A DNA stretch of 55,931 bases from a virus. The position numbers and the translations under genes are program-made. The DNA lies in the IMG/VR virus record IMGVR_UViG_3300037487_002061, positions 1 to 55,931 of that record, one strand, 5' to 3'. The notes beneath the pieces were generated by a model. The model was not told the DNA's origin. It saw nothing but the letters and a program-made list of their open reading frames with translations, and searched no databases. Shown here piece after piece: positions 11,310 through 53,012 of the stretch. Numbering within the stretch: position 1 is the first letter of the stretch; each line of letters begins with the position of its first letter.

Positions 11310-11317
11310 AATATTTT

Positions 11318-11323
11318 ATACAC
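11318..11323 (-). promoter_or_regulatory. GTGTAT element upstream of the homing endonuclease
   Basis: GTGTAT on the minus strand, 8 nt before the ATG at 11309. It is a one-base variant of the GTGTAA boxes at the same distance. Late promoters are common before phage homing endonuclease genes. Confidence 0.35.
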
Positions 11324-11346
11324 TCAATACGAGACAAAGGGACTGA

Positions 11347-19174: not shown

Positions 19175-19176
19175 AA

Positions 19177-20726: not shown

Positions 20727-20768
20727 ATTAAAAATTAATGTTGTTGTATTATTTGTAAATTTAAATTA

Positions 20769-21308: not shown

Positions 21309-21350
21309 AAATTTATATTTATTTTATGTTTTTAATATACATTTTTCTAA

Positions 21351-22109: not shown

Positions 22110-22114
22110 AAATT

Positions 22115-23503: not shown

Positions 23504-23517
23504 ATAATTATAATTAA

Positions 23518-24070: not shown

Positions 24071-24843
24071 ATTTTTAATTTGTGTTCTTGATAATTTTCT
24101 TGAAAATCTTCTAAGGATTTATGCACTTTATGCTGTGGCTCTTGTCCACCAGATTCTATTTTCCAATGATCTTCCCAGAAATTTTTATTTCTTAGCAATC
24201 TATTATTTAAATCTAGATAGCCATTATGAATAACAAATGGATAATCTTTAGTTCTTAAAGAATCAATATCAAATGGTGTAACTTGAGAATATTTAACTAA
24301 ATTACCATTTTCGTCAATTAATTCACATGTATCGCTTTTAGAGGTATCTACTGTACCATTATCTTTTTTAGCAAAATTTACTGCTCCACGATATAAATTT
24401 GATTTATGTAAATACCATTTTGGAGTAATTGAAAAATAATTATTTATATTTTTGTATAGGTTAATTGATGGAATCATATAACAATCACTATTGTAATCAA
24501 ATTTTAAATTAAAAGCTAGTTTTTTCCAAATTAACTTTTGCCATAATGGTATATATTCATCCATGTCAAGACCGATTTTAATTTCATTTGTTGTAGCTTG
24601 TAACGCTTTATTTTTTATTTTGCCATCTAACAAAGGATCTTCGTAAGAAAAATTAGATTCAATAATTATTAAGTTGCTGTAATAACTTTTTAATTTATTT
24701 AATTCTTCAAAAGTATCATCATCACTACTATTTACGCAAATAACTATCTCTTCTGCAAATAAACAAAAATTATTAATTGCTTCAATAAAATTGAATTTAT
24801 TTTTTAATAAATTAAACGCGCTACTATAAATTGAAATATCCAT
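24067..24843 (-). CDS. family 2-like glycosyltransferase, first gene of the glycan cassette
   Basis: 258 residues. An N-terminal Rossmann-like part (FAEEIVICVNSSDDDTFEEL) is followed by NEIKIGLDMDEYIPLWQKLI with a D-x-D site, then a C-terminal region rich in His, Trp and Asn (HNGYLDLNNRLLRNKNFWED). It is a GT-A type enzyme, donor unknown. It overlaps the frameshifted fkbM by 4 bp. Its start lies 18 bp after the terminator at 24861-24896, so it should be transcribed from a promoter within that short stretch or by read-through. No clear promoter is seen. Confidence 0.68.
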   Translation of the reverse strand: MDISIYSSAFNLLKNKFNFIEAINNFCLFAEEIVICVNSSDDDTFEELNKLKSYYSNLIIIESNFSYEDPLLDGKIKNKALQATTNEIKIGLDMDEYIPLWQKLIWKKLAFNLKFDYNSDCYMIPSINLYKNINNYFSITPKWYLHKSNLYRGAVNFAKKDNGTVDTSKSDTCELIDENGNLVKYSQVTPFDIDSLRTKDYPFVIHNGYLDLNNRLLRNKNFWEDHWKIESGGQEPQHKVHKSLEDFQENYQEHKLKI

Positions 24844-28848: not shown

Positions 28849-29463
28849 ATGAAAATTATAGCTGTATCAGGTTTAGCTCGTTCTGGAAAAGATACTATTG
28901 CAAATAAATTGCAACAAGTAATCATTGAGAATAACCCAAATCTAAAAGTTTCAAGAGAAAGCTTTGCTTCATTTCTTAAAGACGAAATGAACGAATTTGT
29001 TCTATCTAAGTTCAATAAAAATATCTATGAGTTAGACGGCGAAGATAAAGAAATGTTACGTCCACTTTTAGTTTCTTATGGTTTTGCCAAAAGACAACAA
29101 ACAGAAGGAAGATATTTTGTAGAACTTCTTTCTAGAAAAATGAAAAACGAGAATAACGATGTTTGCATTATTTCTGACATAAGATACGCAGACAAAGAAA
29201 ACGATGAACTTTATTGGTTAAAAAACGAAGTCGAGGGAAAACTAATTCATGTTGAACGTTATTCTTTTGAAGACTTGCTTGAAACAAAGAAAATTTTTAT
29301 AAAACCGCCAAATGAAGATGAGGAAAGAAATGACCCAATTTTAAAATCAACTGCGAATTTTAAAATTTCTTGGCCATCAGCAAAAAATAATGAAGAACTT
29401 GATAGTATGGCTAGAAAATACTGCGAAGACTTTTACTATGATAACATATCATGCTTTATATAG
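28849..29463 (+). CDS. deoxynucleoside monophosphate kinase-like protein
   Basis: 204 residues. The P-loop is GLARSGKDT (G8-K14), with a helical lid region (RESFASFLKDEMNEFVLSKF) and the strand-Asp VCIISDIRYADKENDELYWL, as in T4 gene 1-type dNMP kinases. It phosphorylates dNMPs to dNDPs and so complements the ribonucleotide reductase in supplying dNTPs. First gene of a plus-strand early-type unit. It overlaps the sigma-like gene by 13 bp. Confidence 0.82.
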   Translation: MKIIAVSGLARSGKDTIANKLQQVIIENNPNLKVSRESFASFLKDEMNEFVLSKFNKNIYELDGEDKEMLRPLLVSYGFAKRQQTEGRYFVELLSRKMKNENNDVCIISDIRYADKENDELYWLKNEVEGKLIHVERYSFEDLLETKKIFIKPPNEDEERNDPILKSTANFKISWPSAKNNEELDSMARKYCEDFYYDNISCFI

Positions 29464-30053
29464 ATCAAGCAACAGATACTTTATTAGTTAATAAAGTAAA
29501 AGAAGACAACGACGAGAAGGCTTTGGAAGAATTAATCGTTCGGCATTCTGGAATTTATGTCCATATGATTAAAAGATTTGGAGGCAAATCTTTGAATAAC
29601 ATTCAAATTAACGACATGCTTGATGACAAAAATTATCAAATTTATAAAGCAGCATTGGAATTTGATGACACCAAAAGCAAATTCTCCACATATTTAGCAA
29701 TCAAAACTAAATATTTGTGCTTGACTCACAAAACAAATAACAAGAAAAACTCTAATATATTTAATTTTGATGATTTTGAATTTAGCTTGGAAGATAAGGG
29801 TTACAATCCTAGCGAGACATTATCAAGAAATGAATTTCTATCAAAAATATTTAGCTTAATTGAGAACCATCAAGATTTACGAGTCAAAACAATCTTTAAA
29901 GAAAGATATTTTTCCAATACAAATGGGAAACTAAAAGCTTGGAAAGATATAGCTCAAAAAGTTGATTTATCAATTCAGGGTTGTATAAACATACATAACA
30001 AAACAGTCAAAGAATTTCAGGAAAAAATAACAGATGAACAGTTTACATTTTGA
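29451..30053 (+). CDS. phage RNA polymerase sigma factor (sigma70 family, late-type)
   Basis: 200 residues. Residues about 20-100 resemble sigma region 2 (EKALEELIVRHSGIYVHMIK, then FDDTKSKFSTYLAIKTKYLC). Residues about 160-195 look like a region 4 helix-turn-helix (LKAWKDIAQKVDLSIQGCIN). Regions 1 and most of 3 are missing. Size and layout resemble small phage sigma factors such as T4 gp55, which recognise only a minus 10-type element. It is the natural candidate to read the GTGTAA boxes of this window, which is inference. It overlaps the kinase and the following glycosyltransferase. Confidence 0.75.
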   Translation: MLYIDQATDTLLVNKVKEDNDEKALEELIVRHSGIYVHMIKRFGGKSLNNIQINDMLDDKNYQIYKAALEFDDTKSKFSTYLAIKTKYLCLTHKTNNKKNSNIFNFDDFEFSLEDKGYNPSETLSRNEFLSKIFSLIENHQDLRVKTIFKERYFSNTNGKLKAWKDIAQKVDLSIQGCINIHNKTVKEFQEKITDEQFTF

Positions 30054-31122
30054 AGGACCAATTAACCCCCTTAGTTTGGGTAATGTTTCGTATAATTTTT
30101 TAAGAGAATTATATAATAAAAATATTGATACAGCCATCTTCCCAGTTGGCAACCAAGCTAATTTCGAATCATACGATAAAGCAAAACCTGAATTTTTAGA
30201 ATGGATTAAAAAAAATGCATTTGATAGATTTAAGAAATTAAATAAAAATAACCCAACTTTAAAAGTTTGGCATATTAATGGTTCTGAATTAAGAATAGCT
30301 CCCGAACAATATCTTTATACTTTTTATGAAGTCGATTCTCCCACACAAGAAGAAATTGCCATTGTAAATAGTCAAGAACATGTTTTCTTTTCTTCTTCAG
30401 AATCTCATAAATTCTTTAAAGAAAAAGGATGCGAAAACACATCTTTTGTGCCTCTTGGATTTGATGAGGATTTTTTCGTAACAAATAAAAAATATTTAGG
30501 AGATGACGTTATTCATTTTGGCCTTATAGGAAAATTTGAAAAGCGAAAAAATACACAGGGGATAATTCAACTTTGGTTACAAAAATATGGAAACAACCCA
30601 AAATACCAATTAACTTGTTTAATTAATAATCCATTCTTTAAAGAAGAAGATTTTGTTGAAATAATGAAACAAACTACCTATGGCGCAAAATGGAAAAACT
30701 TAAATATTCTCCCATACTTAAAAACTAATTCCGAAGTAAACGAACTTTTAAACGCAATAGACATTGACTTATCGGGACTTTCAAATGGCGAGGGGTGGAA
30801 CCTGCCATCATTTAATGCTACGGCCTTGGGCAAATGGTCTATTGTTTCAAATTGCTCGTCCCATAAAGATTGGGCAACACAAGAAAATTCTGTTTTAATT
30901 AATCCCATTGAAAAACAGTCGTGTTATGATAACTTCTTCTTCAAAGAAGGAATGCCATTTAACCAAGGAAATTATTACAAGCTAGATAGCGAATCCATTA
31001 TTAATGGGTTTGAAAAAGCAGAAGTCTTAGCTAAAACAGTTAATGTCAACGGATTAAAACTCCAATCAGAATTTACATATTCCCATTCTATTAACAAAAT
31101 TCTTTCAACAATGTTTCAATAA
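30034..31122 (+). CDS. GT4-like (GT-B) glycosyltransferase
   Basis: 362 residues. Blocks are HFGLIGKFEKRKNTQGIIQL (the hinge strand and loop of GT-B enzymes), then IDIDLSGLSNGEGWNLPSFN with the E-G-W-N/P donor-binding motif of GT4, followed by TALGKWSIVSNCSSHKDW. It uses a nucleotide sugar; acceptor unknown. It overlaps the sigma-factor gene by 20 bp. A similar layout is found at 33528-35261, so the phage has several related transferases on this strand, apart from the minus-strand cassette. Confidence 0.82.
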   Translation: MNSLHFEGPINPLSLGNVSYNFLRELYNKNIDTAIFPVGNQANFESYDKAKPEFLEWIKKNAFDRFKKLNKNNPTLKVWHINGSELRIAPEQYLYTFYEVDSPTQEEIAIVNSQEHVFFSSSESHKFFKEKGCENTSFVPLGFDEDFFVTNKKYLGDDVIHFGLIGKFEKRKNTQGIIQLWLQKYGNNPKYQLTCLINNPFFKEEDFVEIMKQTTYGAKWKNLNILPYLKTNSEVNELLNAIDIDLSGLSNGEGWNLPSFNATALGKWSIVSNCSSHKDWATQENSVLINPIEKQSCYDNFFFKEGMPFNQGNYYKLDSESIINGFEKAEVLAKTVNVNGLKLQSEFTYSHSINKILSTMFQ

Positions 31123-31499
31123 TGCCTATTTATATTTATAAGCACCCAGAAGAAGAAACCTATAAGGAAATCCTTCAAACAATGAATGATGCCCATATTT
31201 ATTCTGAAGATGGAGTTGAGTGGAAAAGAGTATTCACTGTTCCACAAGCATCAATTGATACTAAAATTAATCCATTTTCATCAAAAGAATTTGTTCAAAA
31301 GACAGGAAACAAAAAGGGTACATTTGGAGACATGATGGATTACTCTGCCGAAATGTCAAGAAAAAGGGAAGAAAAAGTTGGAACTGACGATCCAGTTAAA
31401 AGAAAATTCTTTGACGACTATACAAAGAAAAATAAAGTTAAACATGTTCAAGATAAACCAAAGGTTATTGAAAATAAAAACTTTAAAATTGAACTGTAA
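31122..31499 (+). CDS. conserved phage protein, possible FmdB-like remnant
   Basis: 125 residues, beginning MPIYIYKHPEEETYKEILQT and EDGVEWKRVFTVPQAS, ending with a Lys-rich tail. The first 45 residues recall FmdB-type regulatory zinc ribbons but lack the four Cys. The protein is known in many environmental phages without a function. Its ATG overlaps the GT4 stop by one base and its own stop abuts the stop of the convergent fibre-like gene with no spacer. Confidence 0.55.
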   Translation: MPIYIYKHPEEETYKEILQTMNDAHIYSEDGVEWKRVFTVPQASIDTKINPFSSKEFVQKTGNKKGTFGDMMDYSAEMSRKREEKVGTDDPVKRKFFDDYTKKNKVKHVQDKPKVIENKNFKIEL

Positions 31500-32921
31500 T
31501 TAGTAAATATCTGCTATTTTAATAACGCACAAATTACTTGATGGAGTTGAACTATTTTGAAATACTGCGGTAAAACTACCCGTTGAAGAAATTCCTGACA
31601 AATTAAATTGAGTTCCTACATATCCAGTTGCAATTGTAGAAAAATTTTGAGAAATCATTCCAGTATTGCCCAAACCTATAATTATTCTTTGAGAATATAG
31701 TTTTTGATTTCCAGTGTAAAGAAATAAATCGCAATATCTTGGATCGAGTAAATCATCGTTGTTATGGCTTAAATTAATTGTCGCATTAATTAAATACATT
31801 CCAGAATCTGGAAGGGCATCACTTGAGATTAGTAATGTTGAACCCGTAAGAATTGCAGTATTAGCAGTTAAAAATTTATTTTGATAAATACTTCCAGTTT
31901 GAATCTTTGCGCCATTAACAGTTGGTGTAGAGGTAAATCTTTTACTTCCTCCAACAGTTTGGCTTCCAGTAGTCATTAAAAATTCACAATTTCCGCTCAT
32001 CTCTGGAACATTGTAAATCCTATTTGAGCTAGGAATAGAATTTGTTATTGAAATTGTATTGGAACCCGTGTTTCCCAAAAATATACCATTAGCAATTGGG
32101 GGCGATGTAAATGTTTTAATTCCACCAACAGTTTGGCTTCCAGTAGTCATTAAAAATTGACAATTTCCGCCAACATCTGGGATATTGTAAATCTTGTTTG
32201 AAGTTGGAGCAGAGTTAGTTATTGTAACTGTATTAGAAGCTCCACTTCCTAAAATTATTTTATCGAGACCAGCATTTAAAATACTTATAGAATTATTAAA
32301 ACTTGAAATTCCACTTACATCTCCTAAAAACGTTGCGTCCCCAGAAAAAATAGCCGAAGCATTTGAATGTAAAAGTAAATTTGAACTAGCATTTAATAAT
32401 AAATTATTATTTACTTCAACATTTCCTTTAAAATCTGTTCCGTTTGTAAAAGACACATAAAATTTATTATTTGTAGTAGCTATAGTCGAAGTATTTGAAA
32501 AATCAGATATAATCGCCGAACCAGAAATATTGGCATTTGTAGAATTCCCTTTCCCAGCCAAAACCGTACAAAATTTAGAAGTAGAATTAAATATACTTGA
32601 AAGAGAATTTAAATCTAAATTGTTTTTTCCATTTACAATAGAACCAGTAGAATTAATAATAGCATTACCTGTCCCAGCGGAAATCGTATTGGATTTACCT
32701 CCTAGAATTACATTATTCGTTGCAGTATAAGAATTTGTATTATCTGTTAAATATAAATTTGAACCATTTATAATTAAACTACCAGTAATATTAAAATTCC
32801 CAGTAAGGTTATTGCTCAAATTCCCATAAATATAGTTTGATCCTTTGGTGAAGGAGATACTTCCGCTTGGGCTAGAAAAAGTATGAATTTCAATTTGTTC
32901 TGGTTGAATTTTATTGTACAT
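31500..32921 (-). CDS. fibre-like virion protein with repeated modules
   Basis: 473 residues rich in Asn, Ser, Thr and Gly with many short beta strands. The middle has head-domain-like repeats (NNVILGGKSNTISAGTGNAI), as in trimeric autotransporter-like phage fibres. Residues about 240-325 contain two copies of a 58-residue unit (NCQFLMTTGSQTVGGIKTFT and NCEFLMTTGSQTVGGSKRFT). The C-terminal 130 residues look like a compact beta sandwich (SGMYLINATINLSHNNDDLL), suitable for receptor contact. It is a lone minus-strand gene between two plus-strand units. A tail fibre or spike role is inference. Confidence 0.62.
   Translation of the reverse strand: MYNKIQPEQIEIHTFSSPSGSISFTKGSNYIYGNLSNNLTGNFNITGSLIINGSNLYLTDNTNSYTATNNVILGGKSNTISAGTGNAIINSTGSIVNGKNNLDLNSLSSIFNSTSKFCTVLAGKGNSTNANISGSAIISDFSNTSTIATTNNKFYVSFTNGTDFKGNVEVNNNLLLNASSNLLLHSNASAIFSGDATFLGDVSGISSFNNSISILNAGLDKIILGSGASNTVTITNSAPTSNKIYNIPDVGGNCQFLMTTGSQTVGGIKTFTSPPIANGIFLGNTGSNTISITNSIPSSNRIYNVPEMSGNCEFLMTTGSQTVGGSKRFTSTPTVNGAKIQTGSIYQNKFLTANTAILTGSTLLISSDALPDSGMYLINATINLSHNNDDLLDPRYCDLFLYTGNQKLYSQRIIIGLGNTGMISQNFSTIATGYVGTQFNLSGISSTGSFTAVFQNSSTPSSNLCVIKIADIY
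31951..32210 (-). repeat. 174-bp direct repeat inside the fibre-like gene
   Basis: Sequence beginning at 31951 recurs at 32125 (offset 174 bp, 58 codons). The first 32 bases (CCAACAGTTTGGCTTCCAGT and so on) are identical or nearly so, and similarity continues. Confidence 0.65.
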
Positions 32922-32962
32922 TCTTTACTATAGGTTATCAATTAAAAATTACACTATTTCAA

Positions 32963-33541
32963 ATGAAATTCACTCTATATAAACCAAATTCAAAAAATAC
33001 AGGAGCAGCATTTAGTTTCGAAGCTGGAAAATCTAAAAACGGAGACATAGCCCTTTATGTTTCAATGATCCAACAATATGGTTGGAATGATGTCACAAAA
33101 AACGGCTCCTTTAAAGAAAACGCCAAAAATCCAGAAAAATCCGCTTCTATTAAGCTATCAGTAATTGAAGCAGGAGAGTTCCTATCTTCTTTTAAGACAA
33201 GAATTCCATATGTGGCTTTCCACAAGTCTAAAGACGATACTACTATCATTAAATTGACTCCGTGGGACAAGGTGAAGAAGGTAAAAGAACAAGATGGAGA
33301 AAAATCATACACAACTCCAGCATTTGGACTTAATGTTTCTAGAAATTCAAATCAAACATTCCGCATTCCCTTGGAAGCTGGAGAAACAGAGGTTCTTGCT
33401 CAATTTTTAGAAAATTATATCAAGTCTTCTTTTGATTTTGTCAAACGAGAACAAGAATCGATGTATTCTGGAAATAATACTCCTAAAAAAGAATATGTTA
33501 AAAAGCCTCAAGCTGAATCCGAAGAAGATGCCCCATTCTAA
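32963..33541 (+). CDS. single-stranded DNA-binding protein
   Basis: 192 residues. A beta-rich N-terminal domain (MKFTLYKPNSKNTGAAFSFE, SIKLSVIEAGEFLSSFK, FGLNVSRNSNQTFRIPLEAG) is followed by a disordered, charged linker and the acidic tip EEDAPF, the tail that bacterial SSBs use to bind partner proteins. It should coat single strands for the recombinase and polymerase. The fold is not the standard OB-type E. coli SSB and may be of the PC4/whirly type seen in other phages. First gene of a plus-strand unit. The last 14 bp overlap the next gene. Confidence 0.72.
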   Translation: MKFTLYKPNSKNTGAAFSFEAGKSKNGDIALYVSMIQQYGWNDVTKNGSFKENAKNPEKSASIKLSVIEAGEFLSSFKTRIPYVAFHKSKDDTTIIKLTPWDKVKKVKEQDGEKSYTTPAFGLNVSRNSNQTFRIPLEAGETEVLAQFLENYIKSSFDFVKREQESMYSGNNTPKKEYVKKPQAESEEDAPF

Positions 33542-35261
33542 AATAAAAGTTTTATTTCATTCTAATTACAGTAGAATGATTACTGGTTTTGGAAAAAATG
33601 TAAAGAATCTTTTGTTAGCTCTTCATAATGATCCAGATATTGAGGTAATCGAAGCTGCAAACGGGATTCCATATGGAGTAGATGCTAAAACTCCTTGGAA
33701 GTGTTATGGAACAGCTCCATCAGACCAAAACACAATTAACGAAATTGGTGGAGATGGATATAAACAAAGAATGGCTTCTTATGGAGAATATACTATTGAT
33801 AAAATTATTGAAGATTGTCAACCAGATATCTATCTAGGAATAGAAGATATTTGGGCGTTCAAAGATTTTGACAAAAAGCCTTGGTGGAATAAATTAAAAA
33901 CTATAATTTGGACAACGCTTGACAGCGTACCTATTTTAGAAGATGCATTCGAAATAGCCCCGAAATGCGATAAGTTTCTTGTATGGGCTTCTTTTGCAGA
34001 AGAAGAAATGAAAAAAGCTGGTTTTGAAAACGTGGAAACAATTCACGGAGCAATTGATTATTCAAATTTTAACCCTTTGAATAATAGACATGAAATAAGA
34101 AAAAAATTCAATCTTGAAGATAGTTTCGTTACTGGTTTTGTTTTTAAAAATCAGTTAAGAAAATCGGTTCCAAATCTTTTGGAAGGGTTTAAAATCTTTA
34201 AACAAAAAAATCCTAATTCAAATTTAAAGTTATTGCTTCATACAGATTGGTCTGAAATTAATCAAGGTTGGGATATACCAAGATATATAAAAGAAAAACA
34301 AATAAATGAAGATGATATTTTAGCTTCATATATTTGTCATCAATGTGGAGATTACTTTATTCATAAATATATTGGAGAAAAAAAAGATTGTATCTCTTGT
34401 GGAGCTAAAGAAAAAGTCCATACTAAAAACAGTGGTGTTGGAGTCTCTGAAATTCAACTGAATGAAATCTATTCATGTATGGATGTATATTGTCATCCAT
34501 TTACAAGCGGTGGACAAGAACTCCCAATTCAAGAAGCAAAAGCCGCTGGGCTAATTACATTAGTTACAGAGTATTCATGTGGAACTGATTCTTGTTACGA
34601 GTATCAAGGAGGAATTCCTCTCAAATGGAATGAATATAGGGAACCACAAACTCAATTTATTAAAGCAACAACTTGTGTCAAAGATATTGCCGACAAACTT
34701 AATTTTGTTTTCAATATGAACGTATCGGAAAAACAATCATTAATTAAAAATGGTAAAAACTGGGTAGAAAAAGAATTCTCTGTTCAAAAAATCAAAAGTA
34801 ACTTAAAAGAAATTTTTATTGATTTAAAAAATAAAAACAAAGAGGCTGACATCAATGATGAGAAAAAAAATGAAAAAACAATTTCATTTGAAAGTCTTTT
34901 AGATAAAAATCAAGAAGATAGAATTTTAATTGTTATTCCAGAATCTGCTGGAGATGTATTTATGTTAACTTCATTATTGCCCTCCATAAAAGAAGCTTAT
35001 CCAGAAAAAGACCTTTACTTCGCAACCAAAAAAGAGTTTTTTCCTATTTTAGATTTAAATGAATTTATATACAAAGTCATAGAATACGATCCATTTATGG
35101 AAAACCTCGTAATGATGGAAGGAAGATCTGATCATCAAGGATATTTTGAAATATGTTTTCTACCACATATTGGCACTCAAAGACAATTAGATTATTTACA
35201 TCACGGAAATAAAGACAAAATCATGTTTGAAATTCATTCAAATAACTATAATAAATATTAA
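33528..35261 (+). CDS. GT4-type glycosyltransferase with zinc ribbon and N-terminal half of a GT9 domain
   Basis: 577 residues from the ATG at 33528. A longer in-frame start at 33432 would overlap the SSB gene by 110 bp and is unlikely. The GT4 core has IKVLFHSNYSRMITGFGKNV at the start, FVTGFVFKNQLRKSVPNLLE at the hinge, and the donor motif HPFTSGGQELPIQEAKAAGL. Between them sits a zinc ribbon (CHQCG ... CISCG, about residues 295-325). Residues about 490-577 are a second domain with RILIVIPESAGDVFMLTSLL, the N-terminal signature of GT9 heptosyltransferases. The remaining GT9 half is encoded by the next gene. Confidence 0.78.
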   Translation: MPHSKIKVLFHSNYSRMITGFGKNVKNLLLALHNDPDIEVIEAANGIPYGVDAKTPWKCYGTAPSDQNTINEIGGDGYKQRMASYGEYTIDKIIEDCQPDIYLGIEDIWAFKDFDKKPWWNKLKTIIWTTLDSVPILEDAFEIAPKCDKFLVWASFAEEEMKKAGFENVETIHGAIDYSNFNPLNNRHEIRKKFNLEDSFVTGFVFKNQLRKSVPNLLEGFKIFKQKNPNSNLKLLLHTDWSEINQGWDIPRYIKEKQINEDDILASYICHQCGDYFIHKYIGEKKDCISCGAKEKVHTKNSGVGVSEIQLNEIYSCMDVYCHPFTSGGQELPIQEAKAAGLITLVTEYSCGTDSCYEYQGGIPLKWNEYREPQTQFIKATTCVKDIADKLNFVFNMNVSEKQSLIKNGKNWVEKEFSVQKIKSNLKEIFIDLKNKNKEADINDEKKNEKTISFESLLDKNQEDRILIVIPESAGDVFMLTSLLPSIKEAYPEKDLYFATKKEFFPILDLNEFIYKVIEYDPFMENLVMMEGRSDHQGYFEICFLPHIGTQRQLDYLHHGNKDKIMFEIHSNNYNKY

Positions 35262-35262
35262 A

Positions 35263-36399
35263 ATGCATTTAATACAAAGATATTCATTATCAACTGGATT
35301 AAAAATTAATAATCCATCAATTTCAGAACAATTTTTTCCAATCTCTGCTGATAAATTTGTATGTTTTCACACATCAGCAAAAGATAATTTAAGAGATTAT
35401 GATTATTGGAACGAAGTTAAATTTATTCTAGATCCCATTTTAAATAAATATGGATATAAAACAATTCAGATTGGGTTTGGAAAAGATCCAACTGCAAATT
35501 GCGACATAGATTTAAGGGACAAAACTTCTATTCGTCAAATGGCTTACATTGTAAAAAAATGTAATTTATTTCTTGGGGTAGATTCATTCCCAGCTCATTT
35601 GGCTGGATTCTTTAAAAGAAAAATGGTTTCAATTTACTCTAATTCTTTTATGGAATGTGTCAGACCTTATTGGGGAGAAAGAGAAGATCAAATTTTAATA
35701 GAAACTCATAGAGCAGACAAAGAAAAACCATCTTTTTCATTTAATGAAAATCCAAAAACTGTTAATAGAATAAAACCAGAAGAAATTGCAATTGCTGCAT
35801 TGAAATTACTTAATCTTCCTAGTGAAAAAATTAATTTTAAAACAATAAATATTGGCGCAAGATATAAGCAAGAGTGCATAGAAGTAATTTTGTCCAATGA
35901 AAAATGCAACTTAATATCTAATTTTATGAATGTAAGAATGGATATTAATCATGACGAGCAAGCACTATATCATATTCTTGTAAACAATAATGCCGAAGTA
36001 ACATTAACAAAACCAATTGACGATGAACTTTTATTTTCAAAAAAAATCACAGCTATTAATTATGTTACCGAAGAATTTGATATAGAATTTGTTAAAAAAA
36101 TTAAAAAATCTGGAGTTAATCACACATTGCTTTGCACTTCAAAAGAAAAACTTGCTCAACAAAGATTTAATTTATTTGATTTTACAATTCATTTATTTGA
36201 AATAAATGAAATAATCAAAACAAACAAAGAAAAACTACCTAATCTTGATTTAGAAAAAACAAAAGTTCAATCAAATAAAAAAATAATTTGCGGTAATAAA
36301 GTCTACGAGACATGCTATGATTTCAATAACAGGAGAAATGAAGATGATTTTTTTCTTGACTTAGATTGGTATTATTTGTATAATAACCAACATGAATAA
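35263..36399 (+). CDS. C-terminal half of a GT9-like heptosyltransferase plus extra domain
   Basis: 378 residues from the ATG at 35263, one base after the previous stop. An upstream start at 35227 is rejected because it lies in the preceding gene. The N-terminal part has DKFVCFHTSAKDNLRDYDYW and LFLGVDSFPAHLAGFFKRKM then VSIYSNSFMECVRPYWG, the donor-binding half of GT9 enzymes. Residues about 210-378 form an extra domain that is not recognised. The preceding gene ends with the complementary GT9 half, so the two probably form one functional enzyme. This may be a fission of a single ancestral gene. Confidence 0.75.
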   Translation: MHLIQRYSLSTGLKINNPSISEQFFPISADKFVCFHTSAKDNLRDYDYWNEVKFILDPILNKYGYKTIQIGFGKDPTANCDIDLRDKTSIRQMAYIVKKCNLFLGVDSFPAHLAGFFKRKMVSIYSNSFMECVRPYWGEREDQILIETHRADKEKPSFSFNENPKTVNRIKPEEIAIAALKLLNLPSEKINFKTINIGARYKQECIEVILSNEKCNLISNFMNVRMDINHDEQALYHILVNNNAEVTLTKPIDDELLFSKKITAINYVTEEFDIEFVKKIKKSGVNHTLLCTSKEKLAQQRFNLFDFTIHLFEINEIIKTNKEKLPNLDLEKTKVQSNKKIICGNKVYETCYDFNNRRNEDDFFLDLDWYYLYNNQHE

Positions 36400-44648: not shown

Positions 44649-47600
44649 TTATTTCCCCGCCTGACCTAATTGTTTTTCTATATCAAGCAATCTTCCATTT
44701 ACTTGATTACTCAAAGAACTTAAGTTTTTGGTGAAATCAGTAAACCCAGCCAAATTATTCGCTGCATCTTTTACACTTTTAGTTAAAGATTCTACTGCTT
44801 TTGGTATTCCTGTGTCTCCAAACAAACTATTCAATTCGGAAATTTTTGTTTTTAATGTTTCTAGTTCTACATTTAGAGCTTTTTGTTGGTTTTGTAAAGC
44901 TTTTGATTCGGGGTCTTCTGTAGCAGTTGCTTGCTCAGATTCCTTTTTTGCTCTTTCACGAAGTTTTTCAGCTCGTTCTGGCGTAATTTGTTTTTTGGCT
45001 AAAGCCGCTGCAATCTCTTTCTCAGTTGATCCCGTTTTACCTAAACCAGTTAATGAATTAACAATATCTGAACCTCTCTCTGCTTTCTTTTCAGAACCAG
45101 TCACAGCATTTTTTTTCACTGTATCGATGAAATTTTGAATTTTTGTTGGATCACCTTGCGCGGCTTTAAGAGCCTTCATTGTTTCCATTAATTCCCCGCC
45201 AGCGAAAGTCTCTCTAATTGCCTTTTCCACTCCGCTTAAATCTGTAGCCGCCATGCTTGCTGACCCGATTGCCAACCCCGTGTCTTTAGCGGTTAATCCA
45301 GCGTCAGTTTGCATTTGAACTAATTTTTCTTCACCATATCTTTTTGCAAATTCCTTTTGATCTCCATCAGTTTGCCTTAAAATATCTCTTCCCTTTTCTA
45401 CATCTCCTTTTTTCCCAGACTTCAAAAGCCTACCTGCTTCTTCAATCTTATCTTGTAAGGATAACACATCTAATTTCGGACCAGACATTAATTCATTAAT
45501 TTTTCCAGACCCTCCCGCCATAAATTTCGTTCCAGCTTCTTTTATTTTTCCTATTAGTTCAGATAAATTGTTCTGGACTTCGGTTTCTCTATTTAGAGCC
45601 GCTTGCATAGATTCAGCGACATTATTTTTAAATGTTGCTGCTGATGAAATTATATTATCTTTAAATGTTTTCGCGTCTTCTGGTTTTAAATTTGTTTTTA
45701 AATATCCATCCAAAGCTTTTCCAGCTCCGATAGCTCCATCTTTCATATATGCAGAAAACACATCTTTAGAAATAGCTCCACTTATTTCTGCCCCGCTTTT
45801 ACCCTTTAACTTGTCCATTTTAATAGAGTCCATGTTAAGATTTTTTTGGAAATCTTCCCCTGTAAACTCTTTCATGAAGCCAACTTTTGATTCGGTGGCT
45901 AATGTTTTTTTCTGTTCTATTCCTATTGCAGCTTTTGTCGCCTCTGCATATGGTGCGTTTGCTGGCATTGTTACATTTGAGGCAATTCCTTCTGCAAATT
46001 TTTGTTGATCCAATGTGACGGCTTTCTTTTCAAGAGCCGCAGAGAATTTTGAAAGTGCGGAACTTAATGCTTGGAAATTTAATAGTTTTTGAGCTTCCTC
46101 CGCTCTGTTATTTATTATCTGAGACAATTTTGTCATTGCGTTGCCCAAAATAGCTGTATATTCGCCCTCAGCTTGAGTTTTTTCTTCTTCAGATGAGGTT
46201 GAACTTTGAAGAACAGCTTTTGCTTTTTGTTGTGCGTCAGTTATTTCTTTTGAAGAAACTCCACTTGATTTATAGGTTGAGATTATGCTGTTGTACCCAT
46301 TTCTAAGAGCATCAGCGCTCTCTTGTGTTTGATTTCCATTATCGTCAAAAACTTTAGATAACCCAAGTGCCGAACGAGTTAAATCTTTCATACGGTCCAA
46401 GCCTTTCATTTTAGCGTTTACGACTATTGTTGATTCAGCTAAATCTTTTTGCGCTTTTGCTGCTGCGTCTGAAGCCTCTTTGAATGCATTATAACCGCCC
46501 ATTGCCACACCAGCAATAGCACCTAATGCCGCTCCTACTGGACCAAATGACGCGCCCATAGCGGTGTATTGAGCGGTGGTAGAGATCGTGTTTATTGCAG
46601 CAGACTTAAGGGCGCTATCTTCTTCTTTTATTGCAGGAAGCAACGAAGGAAGCGCACTAAGACCCATTTGCAGAGCAATAGATTTCATTCCACCCATTCC
46701 ACCCATTCCACCTCCCGTTCCACCCATTTTAGATCCAGCTTCACCCGCAGTTTTTGCTACATTATTAGCTTTCGTAGTTCCTCCGAACTCAAAGAGATCT
46801 TTCAACGATGGCTTCGACTGGCGATTTCTTTGTTTACTAGACATTGTTGTCTCGTCTATTTTCAAAGGTTTTGCTTGGGGAGACATAGTTCCTGCGGGTA
46901 ACATAGAAAATGTTCCTTTCATAGCAGCTTTTTCTGCTCTTCCTCTTAGAAGTGCTGCATTACCCGCTCCTACGGGCATCATCCTTCCACCAATATTCAC
47001 TTTCGCATCGCCTCCTCCCTTTTCAGGAGGCCCAAGATCGGTAATGCCAAAGTCTTGAGGCTTTGGAGTTGCGCCAATATCTGGGGGTTTTATTGTACTT
47101 AAAGCTTTTCCCGCCTCTGTTGCACCTTTGTTAAGTGGCGCTATTGTTGCTCCCAATTCTTCCATTCTTTTTCTAAAAGCCGCAAGTGTCGCATCTGTAT
47201 CTGACATGCCTTTACTAGCAGGACCTCCTCCCTTCTGCGACGACACTTTTGAGATAGGATCTATGGGCGGGATTGCTCTGTCGACCATTTCTTCCACTCT
47301 TTTTCTAACCGCAATCATCGGATCTATATCTGGCATGCCCCCACTAGCAGGAGGTTCGGCAAAATTAGGAATAAATCCCCTCGCCATACCATAAGTTTTA
47401 ATGCTAGCCCCCTCTTTCTTCGCCCGATTTATACCTTGGAAGCCTCCTTGCGGTTCGTCGCGACGATTAGCGACCATTAATCCAGCGGGATTCATGGGAT
47501 TTTTTAAAGAATTATTTTGATCTACATAGACCTTACTTGGTTCAACTCCTGCGCCGATCTCTCTTGAAATTGCGTCATTGATCGCGGAAAAATTAGGAAT

Positions 47601-50600
47601 AAATCCTTTTGCATAAAAATCATCACTATCATCATCATTGTCTACGACAACGCCTTTAAATACCGCTGGTTTAGCTTTTGGAATGGACGATACAAGATAC
47701 CTAAGAATATATGGAGCAATATCAAAACCTAACGAAGGATTTGCTGGTTGATAAGAATTAATTGAAGACAGAGTCTTTTTTGAAGGAGCGGGTTTATTTT
47801 CGTAACGATCATTTAAAATTTTCTCTCCCGTTGAATTTAAATCCACATCCCATACATCTTTATAACTAAAGACATTTTTGCCATTTATTGTTTTTTGTTT
47901 TCCAGTAAATCCTCCCATTATTGGACTTTCACCATAAAAGCCACCCTTTTCATCAATCATTCTAGGCTCATTCTCGTTTGACATCCCAGTTTCTCTCGCA
48001 CTATTTGCGCTTTTAATCACCTGAGATGCTTCTGCACTATCCTGATAGAATGCTAAATCCCCGTTTTTCTTTTGAAAAAATTGAGACGGTTTTTTACCGC
48101 CATAATCTTTTATATAATCTTTTAGCGATTTTGTTCCACCTAAAAGCTTGTATTTCAAATATAATTCATCCAATTCAGATATTGAGGTTCCCTCTCCAAT
48201 TGGACGATTAGTTGATTGATTCATCTTGCCGTTTACTACATCAACGTACTTTGACTCACCAGAAGGTCTTTCATCTTTGGTTCCGACAATGACATTTTTA
48301 TTATTATAAAGACCCGTGTTTATTCTTGAAGCGGCAAATTTAGCAAAACGCTCTCTTAATATATCATTTCTTAATATTGTTTGAACAGCCGTCTTCGCAT
48401 CCATTAAATCTTTTTTAGTTTTTATTAATTTTTCTGGATCTTGAACGAATTTTGTCAAATTTGCCCATATTGATTCAATATTTAATTTTTCACCTTTGGG
48501 CATTGAGACTCCAAAAGCTTTAGCGGCTTTTGCAGCAAAAAGTCCAGTCTTAGCTATATTAATAGGATTAGTTGTAGCTACTGTTTTTGCAATGCTTGGA
48601 ATCGTTCCTGATGGAATTTTTTTATAAAGATCATAGGCCGATTTTAAAGAGCCATTCAAAGCAAAATTAGGAACAAAACCTCTAGCTGCATATTGAAAAC
48701 GATCCCCCATTTCTTTTTGAAGGCTTTCTATAAACTCTGGCTGATTTTTTTTAATAAAAGATGTATTCTCTAATTGTTTTTGAGACCTGAGATCATCACT
48801 TCCATTTTCGGCCCTTTTTAATCTTCTTTTTTCTATTTCTTCATCAGGAACATTTAAATATTTCAAAGTGCCACCAGAATCTCTAATTGCATTTAAAACT
48901 CCCTGAAGCTGTCCTGAGATACCAGTAGGAGTTTTTGCTAACTCAGATCCAGAAAGTAATGTAAATGAATCGGCTTTTTTGACATCGTCTAAAGAACGAA
49001 TAAACTTGCCCATTCCCATAGCCAATGTCGATTTTCCAGCACCAGAAGGACCAATTATTCCATCTTTTCTTTTTTTTGTTGGTGTTTCTAATATTTTAGA
49101 AAGAACTTGTTTGCTTAATGTTGGGCCTAGCTTGTCTGAATCATAAATATAATTACCACTTTTGGTAGTAGATCCTTTACCAATTTTGGGAACAGATCCT
49201 TTACCAATTTTGGGAATAGATTCTTTAGCAAAGTTTGGTATAAAACCTTTGGCAGCACCATAAGTCTGAGCATTTACTCCCTCTTTCCTAGCTCTAGCTA
49301 TTCCTTGGAGTCCTCCTTGCGGCTCATCACGGCGATTAGCAACCATCAGACCCATTGGGTTCCCAGAGTTCTTCAGAGAGTTGTTCTGATCAACGTAGAC
49401 TTGACTAGGATTAACTCCTGCGCCGATCTCTCTTGAAATTGCGTCATTAATTGCAGAAAAATTAGGAATATAACCAGAAGCAAATCCTTTTAATCCTTTT
49501 ATTTTTGCCGCTCCTTTTGTAATTAATCCTTTGGGAGCATATATAGGAACATTATTTCTATTTGTTACTTTGCTCTCTTCTCTTTTTTTGATTTCAGCGG
49601 CTAATCCAAATAATCTAGTTGTTGGAATATTAGACCTTAATATATCAGCTTGCCTAAGCCTTATTAATTTATCATCATAATCACTGATGGCATTACTTGG
49701 CAAAACTAATCCTTTACCTTTTGGTTTTCCCTCTCCAAAATTAGAATCATTATATGCTGACTTACCAGATATTTTAGCCTCTCTAACTGCGAAAGACCCA
49801 GAAGTGATATCAGGTCCGACTTTATTTTCAGTCATATTAATAGTCGTCTCGTTTCTCAATAACGCTTCGAATATTCTTCCAGCTAATACATTATTTGATA
49901 AATTTGCATCTAAACCATTTATTGCAAAATTAGGAACAAAACCCTTGCTCTTTACTATATTTCTTAAAGGCGCGGGATTAAGTTTTGTTTGCTTGTTAAA
50001 TTCTTCAAAAACTTTTTCAGTCGATGCTGTTGGTCCAGCAGAAGAATAAGCCTTGTCAATAAAGCCTGATATCCCTATTTCTGAATCAAGCTTATCAAAA
50101 ACTTCCCTTAAAGAAATTTTTGCGCCCTTTGAAGAAGAAACAGGAAGAGATTTCCCCCCTTTGAATTTATTTTTAAATATTTCTTGTTCGTTTTTAGAAA
50201 ATCCACTGTTTCCTTCTTTTATTCTTTTTAAAGTTTCGGAAACGTAATTGGGATTAACGTAATTGGGGATAAAGCCACCAGAAGCTCGACGAGTAGGGCG
50301 TGAAGTTGCAGGGGAGGTTATCCCCTTAGTAATATCTTCTCCACTTACAACTTTATTTTGTTTTTTCTTTTTTTCTAAAGCTTTTTCAAAAGCACCTTTA
50401 ACTAGCCTTCTTCTTTCATTAATTTCTGGATCAATTTTTTCTCTATATTCTTTATAAACTTTACCCGCCATGCTTTGTTTAGTTGAGTCCGCAGAATACT
50501 TAAAATCAGCAACTGGAGCGGGTAAAGAATTATTTCCAAATAAATCTTTTAATTTTTTTTGTTCATCTATTTTCGGATTTCTTACATCAAAGTTGCCTTG

Positions 50601-53012
50601 ATCTTTGTCATTTTTTGCTGTCCCTAATCTCAATGTAGTATTAACCGCCGCTTCAAATAAAGCTCCAGAAGCAGCTCTTATAGCCCCTTTAAACCCTTCT
50701 CCTTTAGTAATTTCATCTACGGTATTTGGTTCTGCTGGTCTCAAACCTAAAGCCTCAGCTATAACTTTCGATTGATCAATAATATGTGTTCTAGCTATTG
50801 CTTCAATTTCATCAGATCCAAAATTTGTTTTAAAATTTTCTGCTAATCCAGCCATATTTGAAGCGGCAAAAGCATCAAATTTATAATTTAAGATAACTCC
50901 ATTCGTCTTATCATATTCTTGATTATAATTAATCCCTCTTGAATTATCATTTGGAGTCAATATTGTCGGCATTTTTTGAACCAAACTATTAACATTAATA
51001 GCTTGGTCAAATTTTCTTTCTTTAAGAACAGCTTTTTTTTCATCATCACTTAAAACAGAAGCGCTTCCTGTTTTTTTCAGAGTTTTTTGGCTTCGTATCT
51101 TTTCATTAAACGCCAATTGATCGTCAGTCAGTTTTTTTTGACCTTTTTCTAGAACAATGTAACCTGTAGTTGTATTTATTTTCCCTTGAGGTATAACAGC
51201 GTCCTCAACAGTGGGTTTGGCCGTTTTCCCAAAATTAGGAATAAAACCTTTTGCATAATGAGGTATAACAGCAGAATCTCCGTTTCTTCCAAAATTTGGA
51301 ATTTCGGTTTCTTGGTTATTCATTATGAACTTCTGTCCACCAATCGTTCCTTTGCCTTGTTTAGCTTTTACAGAAGAAGTCGCCCCAAGCATTCTTGCCG
51401 TAGCCTCTTCTGCCATATATCCATCCGCAAATCTTTTGCCACCTTTTCCAGAAAAACCACCACTTGAACTATAACCAGCAACACCTCTTTGAGCCGCCGC
51501 TGTAGCAATACTTCTTAATAATTGTTCTTGTTGAGTTAACAACGCATTTTCTCTTTGAATTGCGGCGATTATAGCAGCTTGTTTATCCGCTTGTGATATA
51601 GTCGTATTTACAATAGCAGCTCTTAACTGTTGGTCTCTAGATAAAAGACCTACAATGCCTCCTTCGATACTTTTGATTTTCTCTGATTGAGAACCAATAT
51701 CTAAAATTGTTTTAAAACCTTCTTTAGCAAATTTAGCAACAAGAGTAAATATCTTAAGAAACGCAGTTGTAATTAATATAAGTCCTGGACCTGATAGAAA
51801 AGCTCCAATTGTTTTGAGCAATCCTTGGATAAATTTATTCCCTTTTTCTGGATCAAGAGCCTCTTCTAAAAATGTTGAGAATGTATTTGCTAGGCTTAAT
51901 AAATTCTTAATAATAGGTCCGAAAGTAATCGTGCCAATTTTTTCTGACAAATTGACAAGCCCGACAATCAATGAATTAATTTGAGCGCTAATACTTTCAT
52001 TTAATTGAGCGTTCTTTGTAAATGCCTCATTGGTTGCTCCCGCTGCTGTTTTAGCTGCGGCTGCAAAAATTGAAGTATCTGATCCCAAATCTTTTAAAGC
52101 AGCACTAACTACGTTAATTTGGAAAACGCCACCAGCAAGTTCTTTTATTTGGTTGGCTACCGTAGGATCTGCTATCTTTTCTAAGGAGGCAGATAATGCT
52201 TGTAGTTTTTGAATGCCTGTTTGAGAAGAATCTATTTCGACTCCTAGTTCTTTTAAATCATCAATAACTTTTGCGCGACCTAATCTAGCGAAAATAGATT
52301 TTAATGCGTTACCAATAACCGCACCACCACGCGCAGTCTTCTGTTCTACTGCTGTAATAATGCCTAGAAGCTCGTCAAAGCTAACTCCCGCATCTTCTGC
52401 CGTCGAACCAGCTCTAGAGAAGCCATCTGCAAGATCTTGAGCAGAAACAGCAAACTTAGTATCGACTGCAACTAACTTATTCGTAATTTGCTCTGCTGTT
52501 AGTCCTGCGCTAGTAAATCCGTTAATAGCGGAGGTTAAAGCTTTAACAGACTTAACTGAATCAAGTCCAGAAACTCTTGTTAAAATGAGAGCGGCGCTTA
52601 ATCTTTTAGAAGTGTCTTCTGCGCTTAAACCTTGACGAGCAAGTTCTGCCGCAGCATCCGCTACAATTCCAAATGCTTGCCCAGTATCTTTAGCTACGGC
52701 GAATACAGAATCTCTTAATTGATTTAATTGATCGCTAGTCCCACCTAAAATAGAACCAATTTCATTAATTCTTTTCTCTACTTCAATTGTATTAGAAATA
52801 AGAGCAGAGAACGCTTGACTTACTCCGTTTAAAATTGTTGTAGTTGCACCGAAAGCAAAAACACGCGCCGTAGAAGCATCAAGAGATTTCTGGAATTCTG
52901 AAGCTTGACCCGTGATTCTTCCGAGTGCTTGCTGTGCTTGTTTCGAAGCCGCATTTAGACTCTGAGTGTTCAGAGTTAAGTTCGCATTAAGATTAATTGA
53001 GCCAGTAGCCAT
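44649..53012 (-). CDS. tape measure protein with embedded modules
   Basis: 2787 residues. The N-terminal 400 have the usual phage tail tape measure pattern (ARVFAFGATTTILNGVSQAF, GIVADAAAELARQGLSAEDT, ARGGAVIGNALKSIFARLGR) and hydrophobic segments near residue 400 (GLILITTAFLKIFTLVA). Residues 589-1884 are unusual: eight G-[FY]-[IV]-P-N-[FY] motifs (at 589, 913, 1024, 1180, 1256, 1445, 1803, 1879) divide the region into modules. One has Walker A GPSGAGKS (1321-1328). Two have PD-(D/E)XK-like patterns (D836-F-K838; FEALL, GPDI and E1078-A-K1080). Two are near-identical 76-residue units. The C-terminal third has a glycine-rich membrane-like stretch (GPVGAALGAIAGVAMGGYNA) and coiled helices. A GTGTAA box is 9 bp upstream. 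By the usual 1.5 A per residue, a tail of about 400 nm is the upper estimate. Confidence 0.92.
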   Translation of the reverse strand: MATGSINLNANLTLNTQSLNAASKQAQQALGRITGQASEFQKSLDASTARVFAFGATTTILNGVSQAFSALISNTIEVEKRINEIGSILGGTSDQLNQLRDSVFAVAKDTGQAFGIVADAAAELARQGLSAEDTSKRLSAALILTRVSGLDSVKSVKALTSAINGFTSAGLTAEQITNKLVAVDTKFAVSAQDLADGFSRAGSTAEDAGVSFDELLGIITAVEQKTARGGAVIGNALKSIFARLGRAKVIDDLKELGVEIDSSQTGIQKLQALSASLEKIADPTVANQIKELAGGVFQINVVSAALKDLGSDTSIFAAAAKTAAGATNEAFTKNAQLNESISAQINSLIVGLVNLSEKIGTITFGPIIKNLLSLANTFSTFLEEALDPEKGNKFIQGLLKTIGAFLSGPGLILITTAFLKIFTLVAKFAKEGFKTILDIGSQSEKIKSIEGGIVGLLSRDQQLRAAIVNTTISQADKQAAIIAAIQRENALLTQQEQLLRSIATAAAQRGVAGYSSSGGFSGKGGKRFADGYMAEEATARMLGATSSVKAKQGKGTIGGQKFIMNNQETEIPNFGRNGDSAVIPHYAKGFIPNFGKTAKPTVEDAVIPQGKINTTTGYIVLEKGQKKLTDDQLAFNEKIRSQKTLKKTGSASVLSDDEKKAVLKERKFDQAINVNSLVQKMPTILTPNDNSRGINYNQEYDKTNGVILNYKFDAFAASNMAGLAENFKTNFGSDEIEAIARTHIIDQSKVIAEALGLRPAEPNTVDEITKGEGFKGAIRAASGALFEAAVNTTLRLGTAKNDKDQGNFDVRNPKIDEQKKLKDLFGNNSLPAPVADFKYSADSTKQSMAGKVYKEYREKIDPEINERRRLVKGAFEKALEKKKKQNKVVSGEDITKGITSPATSRPTRRASGGFIPNYVNPNYVSETLKRIKEGNSGFSKNEQEIFKNKFKGGKSLPVSSSKGAKISLREVFDKLDSEIGISGFIDKAYSSAGPTASTEKVFEEFNKQTKLNPAPLRNIVKSKGFVPNFAINGLDANLSNNVLAGRIFEALLRNETTINMTENKVGPDITSGSFAVREAKISGKSAYNDSNFGEGKPKGKGLVLPSNAISDYDDKLIRLRQADILRSNIPTTRLFGLAAEIKKREESKVTNRNNVPIYAPKGLITKGAAKIKGLKGFASGYIPNFSAINDAISREIGAGVNPSQVYVDQNNSLKNSGNPMGLMVANRRDEPQGGLQGIARARKEGVNAQTYGAAKGFIPNFAKESIPKIGKGSVPKIGKGSTTKSGNYIYDSDKLGPTLSKQVLSKILETPTKKRKDGIIGPSGAGKSTLAMGMGKFIRSLDDVKKADSFTLLSGSELAKTPTGISGQLQGVLNAIRDSGGTLKYLNVPDEEIEKRRLKRAENGSDDLRSQKQLENTSFIKKNQPEFIESLQKEMGDRFQYAARGFVPNFALNGSLKSAYDLYKKIPSGTIPSIAKTVATTNPINIAKTGLFAAKAAKAFGVSMPKGEKLNIESIWANLTKFVQDPEKLIKTKKDLMDAKTAVQTILRNDILRERFAKFAASRINTGLYNNKNVIVGTKDERPSGESKYVDVVNGKMNQSTNRPIGEGTSISELDELYLKYKLLGGTKSLKDYIKDYGGKKPSQFFQKKNGDLAFYQDSAEASQVIKSANSARETGMSNENEPRMIDEKGGFYGESPIMGGFTGKQKTINGKNVFSYKDVWDVDLNSTGEKILNDRYENKPAPSKKTLSSINSYQPANPSLGFDIAPYILRYLVSSIPKAKPAVFKGVVVDNDDDSDDFYAKGFIPNFSAINDAISREIGAGVEPSKVYVDQNNSLKNPMNPAGLMVANRRDEPQGGFQGINRAKKEGASIKTYGMARGFIPNFAEPPASGGMPDIDPMIAVRKRVEEMVDRAIPPIDPISKVSSQKGGGPASKGMSDTDATLAAFRKRMEELGATIAPLNKGATEAGKALSTIKPPDIGATPKPQDFGITDLGPPEKGGGDAKVNIGGRMMPVGAGNAALLRGRAEKAAMKGTFSMLPAGTMSPQAKPLKIDETTMSSKQRNRQSKPSLKDLFEFGGTTKANNVAKTAGEAGSKMGGTGGGMGGMGGMKSIALQMGLSALPSLLPAIKEEDSALKSAAINTISTTAQYTAMGASFGPVGAALGAIAGVAMGGYNAFKEASDAAAKAQKDLAESTIVVNAKMKGLDRMKDLTRSALGLSKVFDDNGNQTQESADALRNGYNSIISTYKSSGVSSKEITDAQQKAKAVLQSSTSSEEEKTQAEGEYTAILGNAMTKLSQIINNRAEEAQKLLNFQALSSALSKFSAALEKKAVTLDQQKFAEGIASNVTMPANAPYAEATKAAIGIEQKKTLATESKVGFMKEFTGEDFQKNLNMDSIKMDKLKGKSGAEISGAISKDVFSAYMKDGAIGAGKALDGYLKTNLKPEDAKTFKDNIISSAATFKNNVAESMQAALNRETEVQNNLSELIGKIKEAGTKFMAGGSGKINELMSGPKLDVLSLQDKIEEAGRLLKSGKKGDVEKGRDILRQTDGDQKEFAKRYGEEKLVQMQTDAGLTAKDTGLAIGSASMAATDLSGVEKAIRETFAGGELMETMKALKAAQGDPTKIQNFIDTVKKNAVTGSEKKAERGSDIVNSLTGLGKTGSTEKEIAAALAKKQITPERAEKLRERAKKESEQATATEDPESKALQNQQKALNVELETLKTKISELNSLFGDTGIPKAVESLTKSVKDAANNLAGFTDFTKNLSSLSNQVNGRLLDIEKQLGQAGK
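46688..46728 (-). repeat. 9-bp tandem repeat coding Gly-Gly-Met
   Basis: Units of CCACCCATT on the plus strand recur within this stretch of the tape measure gene, giving GGMGGMGG in the protein. Confidence 0.7.
47379..47606 (-). repeat. copy 2 of a 228-bp direct repeat in the tape measure gene
   Basis: It encodes residues 1803-1878, one 76-residue module ending at a GFIPNF motif. It is near-identical in protein and largely in DNA to the copy at 49248-49475, with shared blocks SAINDAISREIGAGV and VYVDQNNSLKN and GLMVANRRDEPQGG. Confidence 0.85.
49171..49216 (-). repeat. 24-bp tandem duplication in the tape measure gene
   Basis: GATCCTTTACCAATTTTGGG occurs at 49171 and again at 49195 (24 bp, 8 codons), giving PKIGKGSV then PKIGKGST. 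Confidence 0.8.
49248..49475 (-). repeat. copy 1 of a 228-bp direct repeat in the tape measure gene
   Basis: It encodes residues 1180-1255, spaced exactly as in the other copy (76 residues from one GFIPNF-type motif to the next). It lies directly before the P-loop module. Confidence 0.85.

Follow-up and report, generated by a model that had tools for sequence, protein, structure and literature searches.

A GFIPNF-separated array of putative enzyme domains in a phage tape measure protein, probably delivered to the host

Tape measure gene and its motif-bounded modules

We analyzed a 55,931-nucleotide stretch of viral DNA (IMG/VR record IMGVR_UViG_3300037487_002061; hereafter, the window), in which positions 44649–53012 of the minus strand form one open frame coding for a protein of 2787 aa. 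The N-terminal part of this protein matches PHROGs tail length tape measure families (E-values down to 2e-40) as well as Pfam PhageMin_Tail (1e-20), and by this part of its sequence the protein is a genuine tape measure protein (TMP). The pattern G[FY][IV]PN[FY] occurs in it eight times, at residues 589, 913, 1024, 1180, 1256, 1445, 1803 and 1879, whereas about 0.0002 copies would be expected from the protein's own composition. At the DNA level, the minus strand of the record contains eight matches to the pattern and the plus strand none; a reversed control pattern gave no matches in the record. The first-pass annotation had already read eight copies within residues 589–1884, and these are borne out (51231–51248 down to 47361–47378); the degenerate copy that it placed near 51294 is TEIPNF at residues 569–574 (51291–51308). 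The P-loop module, the two nuclease-like modules and the duplicated unit (76 aa, 82% identical) that it described between the copies are also all present. The resulting layout is as follows.

44649–53012, minus: tape measure protein gene, 2787 aa (PHROGs, Pfam, single open frame)
51333–53012, minus: conserved TMP N-terminal region, residues 1–560 (63–77% identical in the relatives L139–L147; the part behind it varies)
51291–51308, minus: degenerate motif TEIPNF, residues 569–574, within a small conserved first unit MNNxExxIPNFGxNGDSAVIPxY (a similar small unit, number 8, is present in other TMPs)
51231–51248, minus: motif copy 1, GFIPNF (589)
50259–51248, minus: module 1, residues 589–918, PD-(D/E)xK-type nuclease signature (33-sequence alignment A1)
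50259–50276, minus: motif copy 2, GFIPNY (913)
49926–50276, minus: module 2, residues 913–1029, no relatives found (singleton in clustering)
49926–49943, minus: motif copy 3, GFVPNF (1024)
49458–49943, minus: module 3, residues 1024–1185, second nuclease-like module (GRxFE ... PDI ... EAKxS, by sequence reading)
49458–49475, minus: motif copy 4, GYIPNF (1180)
49230–49475, minus: module 4, residues 1180–1261, first copy of the 76-aa small unit (alignment A4)
49230–49247, minus: motif copy 5, GFIPNF (1256)
48663–49247, minus: module 5, residues 1256–1450, predicted P-loop kinase with GPSGAGKST and a conserved Arg lid (alignment A3, AlphaFold2, structure search)
48663–48680, minus: motif copy 6, GFVPNF (1445)
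47589–48680, minus: module 6, residues 1445–1808, no relatives found (clustering, single-sequence search)
47589–47606, minus: motif copy 7, GFIPNF (1803)
47361–47606, minus: module 7, residues 1803–1884, second copy of the 76-aa small unit, the usual last unit of arrays
47361–47378, minus: motif copy 8, GFIPNF (1879)
44649–47360, minus: C-terminal TMP part, residues 1885–2787, partly conserved in relatives without modules

The C-terminal part is 22–32% identical to its counterparts in L139, L140, L142 and L146.

Several other features of the window deserve mention. At 6857–12057 (minus strand), several genes together encode DNA polymerase III alpha: a PHP part (11347–12057), a LAGLIDADG endonuclease gene (10515–11309), an exonuclease (9901–10518) and two polymerase parts. 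The first of these (9302–9904) ends in an intein N-half and the second (6857–9199) starts with an apparent intein C-half, so that, by sequence, the two halves are probably joined by a split intein. The protein encoded at 4543–6873 (minus strand) has two AAA+ domains and a ClpA/ClpB-like lid, which is unusual in a phage. Several glycosyltransferase genes are identified by Pfam at 28849–36399 (plus strand), and sugar-epimerase-like and methyltransferase-like genes were read from the sequence at 18125–24843 (minus strand).

Distribution of the motif

We searched a viral collection with a degenerate DNA form of the motif, a single match per contig being sufficient to fetch the locus. The search returned 112 matching stretches, against a handful at most expected by chance (as estimated from the information content of the pattern). 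These yielded about 93 TMP sequences, some of them fragments, each with 2–11 motif copies. Motif-bounded modules of different kinds, which the first-pass annotation had suggested looking for in other phage TMPs, are thus present in about 93 sequences, all from uncultured phages known from sequence alone. The motif is essentially confined to TMPs: the related contigs contain 453 copies in their TMP reading frames (230,000 aa) against five in their other frames (202,000 aa), and of these five at least four belong to fragments of such TMPs. Most arrays begin at residue 530–650, after the conserved N-terminal part. The copies share a wider consensus, [AMFYG]-[AS]-x-G-[FYHL]-[IV]-P-N-[FY]-A, in which A/S at position −2 and A at position +6 were no part of the search pattern; when the search was relaxed, few variants appeared at G, P or N.

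Among the cultured phages of the collection, matches in a full-length TMP search were limited to the N-terminal part (<60% identity), and neither the small units nor the modules of a second TMP lineage (see below) had a match. GFIPNF was found in no text searched, and the literature on TMPs as modular effectors provided leads only to contractile injection systems (CIS) and polyvalent proteins.

Two observations stand somewhat apart. A contig from a Paceibacterota metagenome-assembled genome (L135) encodes a 1651-aa fragment with five motif copies; although the genome is cellular, this is probably a binned phage contig. In L021, L092, L098, L101 and L102 a motif-bounded 57-aa unit, or the motif pair itself, is located near the C-terminal end of other large proteins and not in the middle of an array.

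Module families

To define module families, we split the TMPs at the motif and clustered the resulting 285 segments. They fell into 97 clusters, 55 of which are singletons; judged by sequence, most of the modules bear no relation to each other. Modules 2 and 6 of the window TMP (residues 913–1029 and 1445–1808) have no relative among the clustered segments, and single-sequence searches found no close relatives of modules 3 and 6.

The commonest large cluster includes module 1 of the window TMP. In its alignment (A1, 33 sequences, about 20% identity), Gly, Asp and Lys residues are invariant and a Phe-Glu is nearly so. In module numbering, E199 is conserved in >90% of the sequences, D221 and K250 are invariant, and position 248 is D or E in 33 of the 33 rows (by inspection). 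In its conserved residues module 1 thus has the E...D...(D/E)xK pattern of the PD-(D/E)xK nuclease superfamily. Profile comparison linked at least 10 further clusters to this one. The AlphaFold2 model of module 1 has a mean pLDDT of 72.5, and neither Foldseek, VIA-align nor sequence profiles provided a convincing match in the PDB, so the predicted nuclease fold is drawn from residue conservation. Foldseek and VIA-align matches of the model to CorA and Rab were discounted as helical-bundle or weak matches only. The nuclease signature of module 3 is also present in L056, L009 and L033.

Module 5 is better defined. The P-loop residues are invariant in its alignment (A3), and the core of the AlphaFold2 model has a pLDDT of about 85. 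The best structural match of the model is a bacterial polynucleotide kinase (Z = 8.0, 3.7 Å over 118 residues), followed by zeta toxin (Z = 7.7) and adenylate kinases (Z = 7.5). By its model, module 5 is a P-loop kinase of the NMP/PNK type; the Z-scores are moderate and the matches agree on a single superfamily. A profile search of the PDB with the kinase module aligned the Walker A region only. The first-pass annotation had asked for structure predictions of the segments between motifs; of the two modules modeled, module 5 gave a kinase fold and module 1 a model of moderate confidence with no PDB match. The motif ends have pLDDT <50 in both models; this fits flexible linkers, weakly, as they are chain ends in the models.

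The 76-aa small unit, present twice in the window TMP, closes 48 of the 63 arrays; Pfam searches with the small units returned nothing useful. Arrays of other phages contain further enzyme-like modules: putative HAD phosphatases (DxDxT ... TA ... DD) and ADP-ribosyltransferase-like (ART) domains, both read from motifs, a GHKL ATPase with HExxH (Pfam 4e-5 for GHKL) and a ParB-like domain (Pfam 0.006). A Pfam search with twenty diverse modules recovered only the GHKL ATPase and ParB_N, near threshold. The HAD, ART and second-nuclease assignments, being motif readings without Pfam confirmation, should be taken as leads, not proofs.

Two module combinations may be singled out. In L014 (6604–8349) a GHKL-type ATPase and an HExxH peptidase-like motif occur together in a single motif-bounded module of 582 aa, which is weakly similar to rIIA-type families. 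L017, L028 and L057 have polynucleotide-kinase-like and HAD phosphatase modules in the same array, reminiscent of end-healing kinase-phosphatase enzymes.

Exchange of modules at the motif

Comparison of closely related TMPs reveals that arrays differ by whole modules. L017 and L068 have N-domains that are 96.9% identical and arrays of 182-167-233-149-137-157-72 and 182-233-149-137-72 residues, respectively. L058 and L115 (N-domains 98.3% identical) differ by two modules, and L007, L009 and L033 (95–96%; L007/L033 96.3%) also differ in module content. The opposite situation is seen in L139 and L001: their N-domains are only 38% alike, whereas the kinase module is 92% and the small unit 95.5% identical. 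L139, with an N-domain 77% identical to that of the window TMP, has the array kinase-nuclease-small unit; the order in the window is nuclease-unknown-nuclease-small-kinase-unknown-small. The edges of the exchanged segments can be placed precisely. In the DNA alignment of L017 and L068 the first block stops at base 2445, which is the last base of the motif starting at 2428, and in that of L058 and L115 homology restarts at 5533, the first base of a motif. Sequence comparison thus shows whole modules inserted, lost and swapped between phages, with edges in the GFIPNF motif. A different kind of change is suggested by L064 and L104, whose N-domains are 99.6% identical and nuclease modules only 74%; here the nuclease allele may have been replaced or may evolve fast.

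The coincidence of breakpoints with the motif raises the question of whether GFIPNF is a mere recombination joint, a short stretch of DNA homology between modules that are mobile, selfish or decaying and of little function to the phage. Motif copies of one gene are indeed somewhat more alike in codons than expected (0.66 versus 0.54), yet about a third of their codons differ. At orthologous junctions, synonymous change in the motif (86 of 582 codons, 15%) is near the level of the flanks (1338 of 7760, 17%), whereas amino-acid change is lower (27 of 582, 4.6%, versus 731 of 7760, 9.4%). Since the residues are kept while synonymous sites vary, selection acts on the protein, and this variation rules out that the motif is due to a recombination signal in the DNA alone. 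Catalytic residues, moreover, are retained in widely diverged modules. We therefore regard a mere joint as very improbable. Conservation at the protein level indicates instead that the motif most likely works as a short standardized linker.

Relatives without the motif and a second lineage

Nine relatives (L139–L147) were retrieved by the N-domain and not by the motif. Six of them (L141–L145 and L147), with N-domains 63–66% identical to that of the window TMP, have one nuclease module, and in them the motif is either absent in its exact form or present only in degenerate versions. The motif is thus needed for stringing modules together and not for a module itself. Conserved neighboring genes, one of which (in L139) matches a PHROGs tail protein (2.7e-8), are common to the nine relatives, motif-bearing and motif-less alike, and put the TMP among tail genes. 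Within about 9 kb, we found no protease or other gene that distinguishes the two kinds in this comparison, and thus no candidate for a dedicated protease or partner gene nearby. Nor is there a variable small gene or an immunity gene downstream of the TMP, where the genes are conserved in both kinds of relatives.

These data bear on the possibility that GFIPNF is a protease site, at which a phage or host protease would cut the TMP during tail maturation or entry and free the modules as effectors. Such a site might look like GFIPNF, which is short, hardly varies, recurs only between modules and lies in regions of low model confidence, and one related array includes an HExxH module. The lambda tape measure protein gpH is proteolytically processed, which provides a precedent. 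Processing has also been proposed for the multidomain injected polyvalent proteins (PMC5512222). However, comparison of the nine relatives revealed no protease gene that goes along with the motif, and TMPs that have only one nuclease module manage without it. Few of the arrays include an HExxH module, and the window TMP has none. On balance we consider a protease site unlikely. Cleavage at the motif is possible, and no observation here requires it.

With the kinase module as query, we found a second TMP lineage (L153, L154 and L156–L158), which has zero copies of GFIPNF. Between its kinase and nuclease-like modules the separator is [VI]Q[KR]FAxGG, and a GGxVPGxGxxDxVPAMLTPGEFV element flanks the modules; in one of these TMPs a module looks like the staphylococcal nuclease type. 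The existence of cargo arrays with more than one type of separator makes a role in linking or packing more likely than a single, unique site for a protease.

The A-x-G-containing FAxGG around related modules, found beside the GGxVPGxGxxDxVPAMLTPGEFV elements, could also be taken to mean that the separator is an uncleaved docking or packing element derived from a general TMP repeat (A-x-G-G type) that anchors the modules to the wall of the tube, to a chaperone or to the core of the TMP. The modules would then serve mainly tail assembly or DNA ejection and not attack on the host. Protein-level selection on the motif and the small unit that usually closes the array (48/63) are in line with such a role. 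On the other hand, the C-terminal part of the TMP has almost none of these motifs, module content varies while neighboring tail genes stay constant, and catalytic signatures, which padding would not need, are kept in many module families. This makes a docking element, in our estimate, quite improbable.

Proposed role of the array

Our preferred reading, to which we assign a probability of roughly 0.6, is that small enzyme domains form an interchangeable array within the TMP, set between the N-terminal part used in assembly and the C-terminal part, and that this array is probably delivered to the host. In other phages, the TMP lies inside the tail tube and is expelled at infection, and CIS effectors have arisen from TMP-like proteins (PMC13277306). 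If the present TMPs behave likewise, the modules would accompany the TMP into the host envelope or through it. Delivery into the host together with the DNA is what we infer purely from TMP biology. Once delivered, the modules might act early against host DNA, RNA or defenses, or protect the incoming DNA. GFIPNF would be a short, flexible, standardized linker, possibly recognized by a partner common to all copies, and would allow domains of very different kinds to line up in one chain inside the narrow tube. It serves at the same time as a recombination seam at which modules can be added or removed without breaking a fold. Folded domains of 15–35 kDa in a tube of about 40 Å pose a packing problem, which counts against the modules being cargo.

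The first-pass annotation had gone further, proposing that the motif marks cleavage or hinge sites and that the TMP carries effectors released on injection. The carrier idea is well supported by the distinct, folded-looking, enzyme-type modules that, by sequence, are exchanged as cassettes; obligatory cleavage is disfavored by the motif-less relatives with a single module and by the lack, within about 9 kb, of a gene that sets motif-bearing relatives apart. That the motif is also the seam of module exchange had not been considered in that annotation. In its boldest form, which we rate at somewhat less than even odds, the idea would extend to TMPs of a broad group of uncultured phages as standardized cargo racks, in which a universal short separator allows interchangeable enzyme cassettes to be fitted into the tail tube and delivered ahead of the DNA as an early counter-defense or host-attack kit, possibly cut at the separators.

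If this is true, the TMP would be more than a ruler and would also serve as a rack on which enzymes are loaded for injection; the nine-residue motif would be a simple sequence handle for finding cargo in metagenomes. The arrays would represent a large source of unannotated nucleases, kinases and phosphatases, probably counter-defense or host-takeover factors delivered before phage gene expression. The packing and threading of folded cargo through the tail, as well as the TMP origin of contractile-injection effectors, would become testable.

Comparison with known systems

Enzyme activity within a TMP has a precedent in mycobacteriophage TM4, whose TMP has a peptidoglycan hydrolase motif used at entry (PMC1796659); that is one cell-wall enzyme motif and not a swappable array of nucleases, kinases and phosphatases. 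The TMP-derived CIS effectors Sle1 and Tme (PMC13277306) are similar in being TMP-related ejected cargo with exchangeable functional domains. Sle1, in contrast, belongs to a bacterial nanomachine and has one C-terminal functional domain, and no internal array or separator motif is described for it in the text consulted. MuF and other polymorphic toxins (PMC5576092, PMC3482391) are likewise phage-associated proteins with variable toxin-like domains swapped as cassettes. However, in MuF toxins it is the C-terminal end that varies, and an immunity gene may accompany them, whereas here the modules are internal and multiple, with the C-terminal part of the TMP behind them and no variable gene downstream. 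Module 5 is predicted to share the fold of polynucleotide kinase and zeta-toxin kinases (PDB 4gp7, 6eph), with the difference that it is built into a TMP between motifs.

Together with the CIS effectors, the closest parallel is provided by the polyvalent proteins that phages and conjugative elements encode (Iyer, Burroughs, Anand, de Souza and Aravind 2017, PMC5512222), which combine several disparate enzymatic domains in one chain and are predicted to be coinjected with DNA. Disparate domains in one chain are found here too: nuclease-type and kinase modules in the window TMP, and HAD, ART, GHKL and ParB-like domains in its relatives. ParB-like, ART and zincin metallopeptidase domains are named for polyvalent proteins, and similar-looking domains occur in the present arrays. 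A zincin metallopeptidase is frequent, if not obligatory, in polyvalent proteins; the window TMP has no HExxH, which is seen in L014-type arrays, and this lowers the case for its membership. The dominant modules here differ as well, being PD-(D/E)xK-like nucleases and the P-loop kinase, and the chain is the TMP itself with a dedicated repeated separator, whereas the word 'tape' is absent from PMC5512222. Multidomain injected proteins are already known and common in phages (PMC5512222); their placement in the TMP, with a separator motif of its own, would be the new part.
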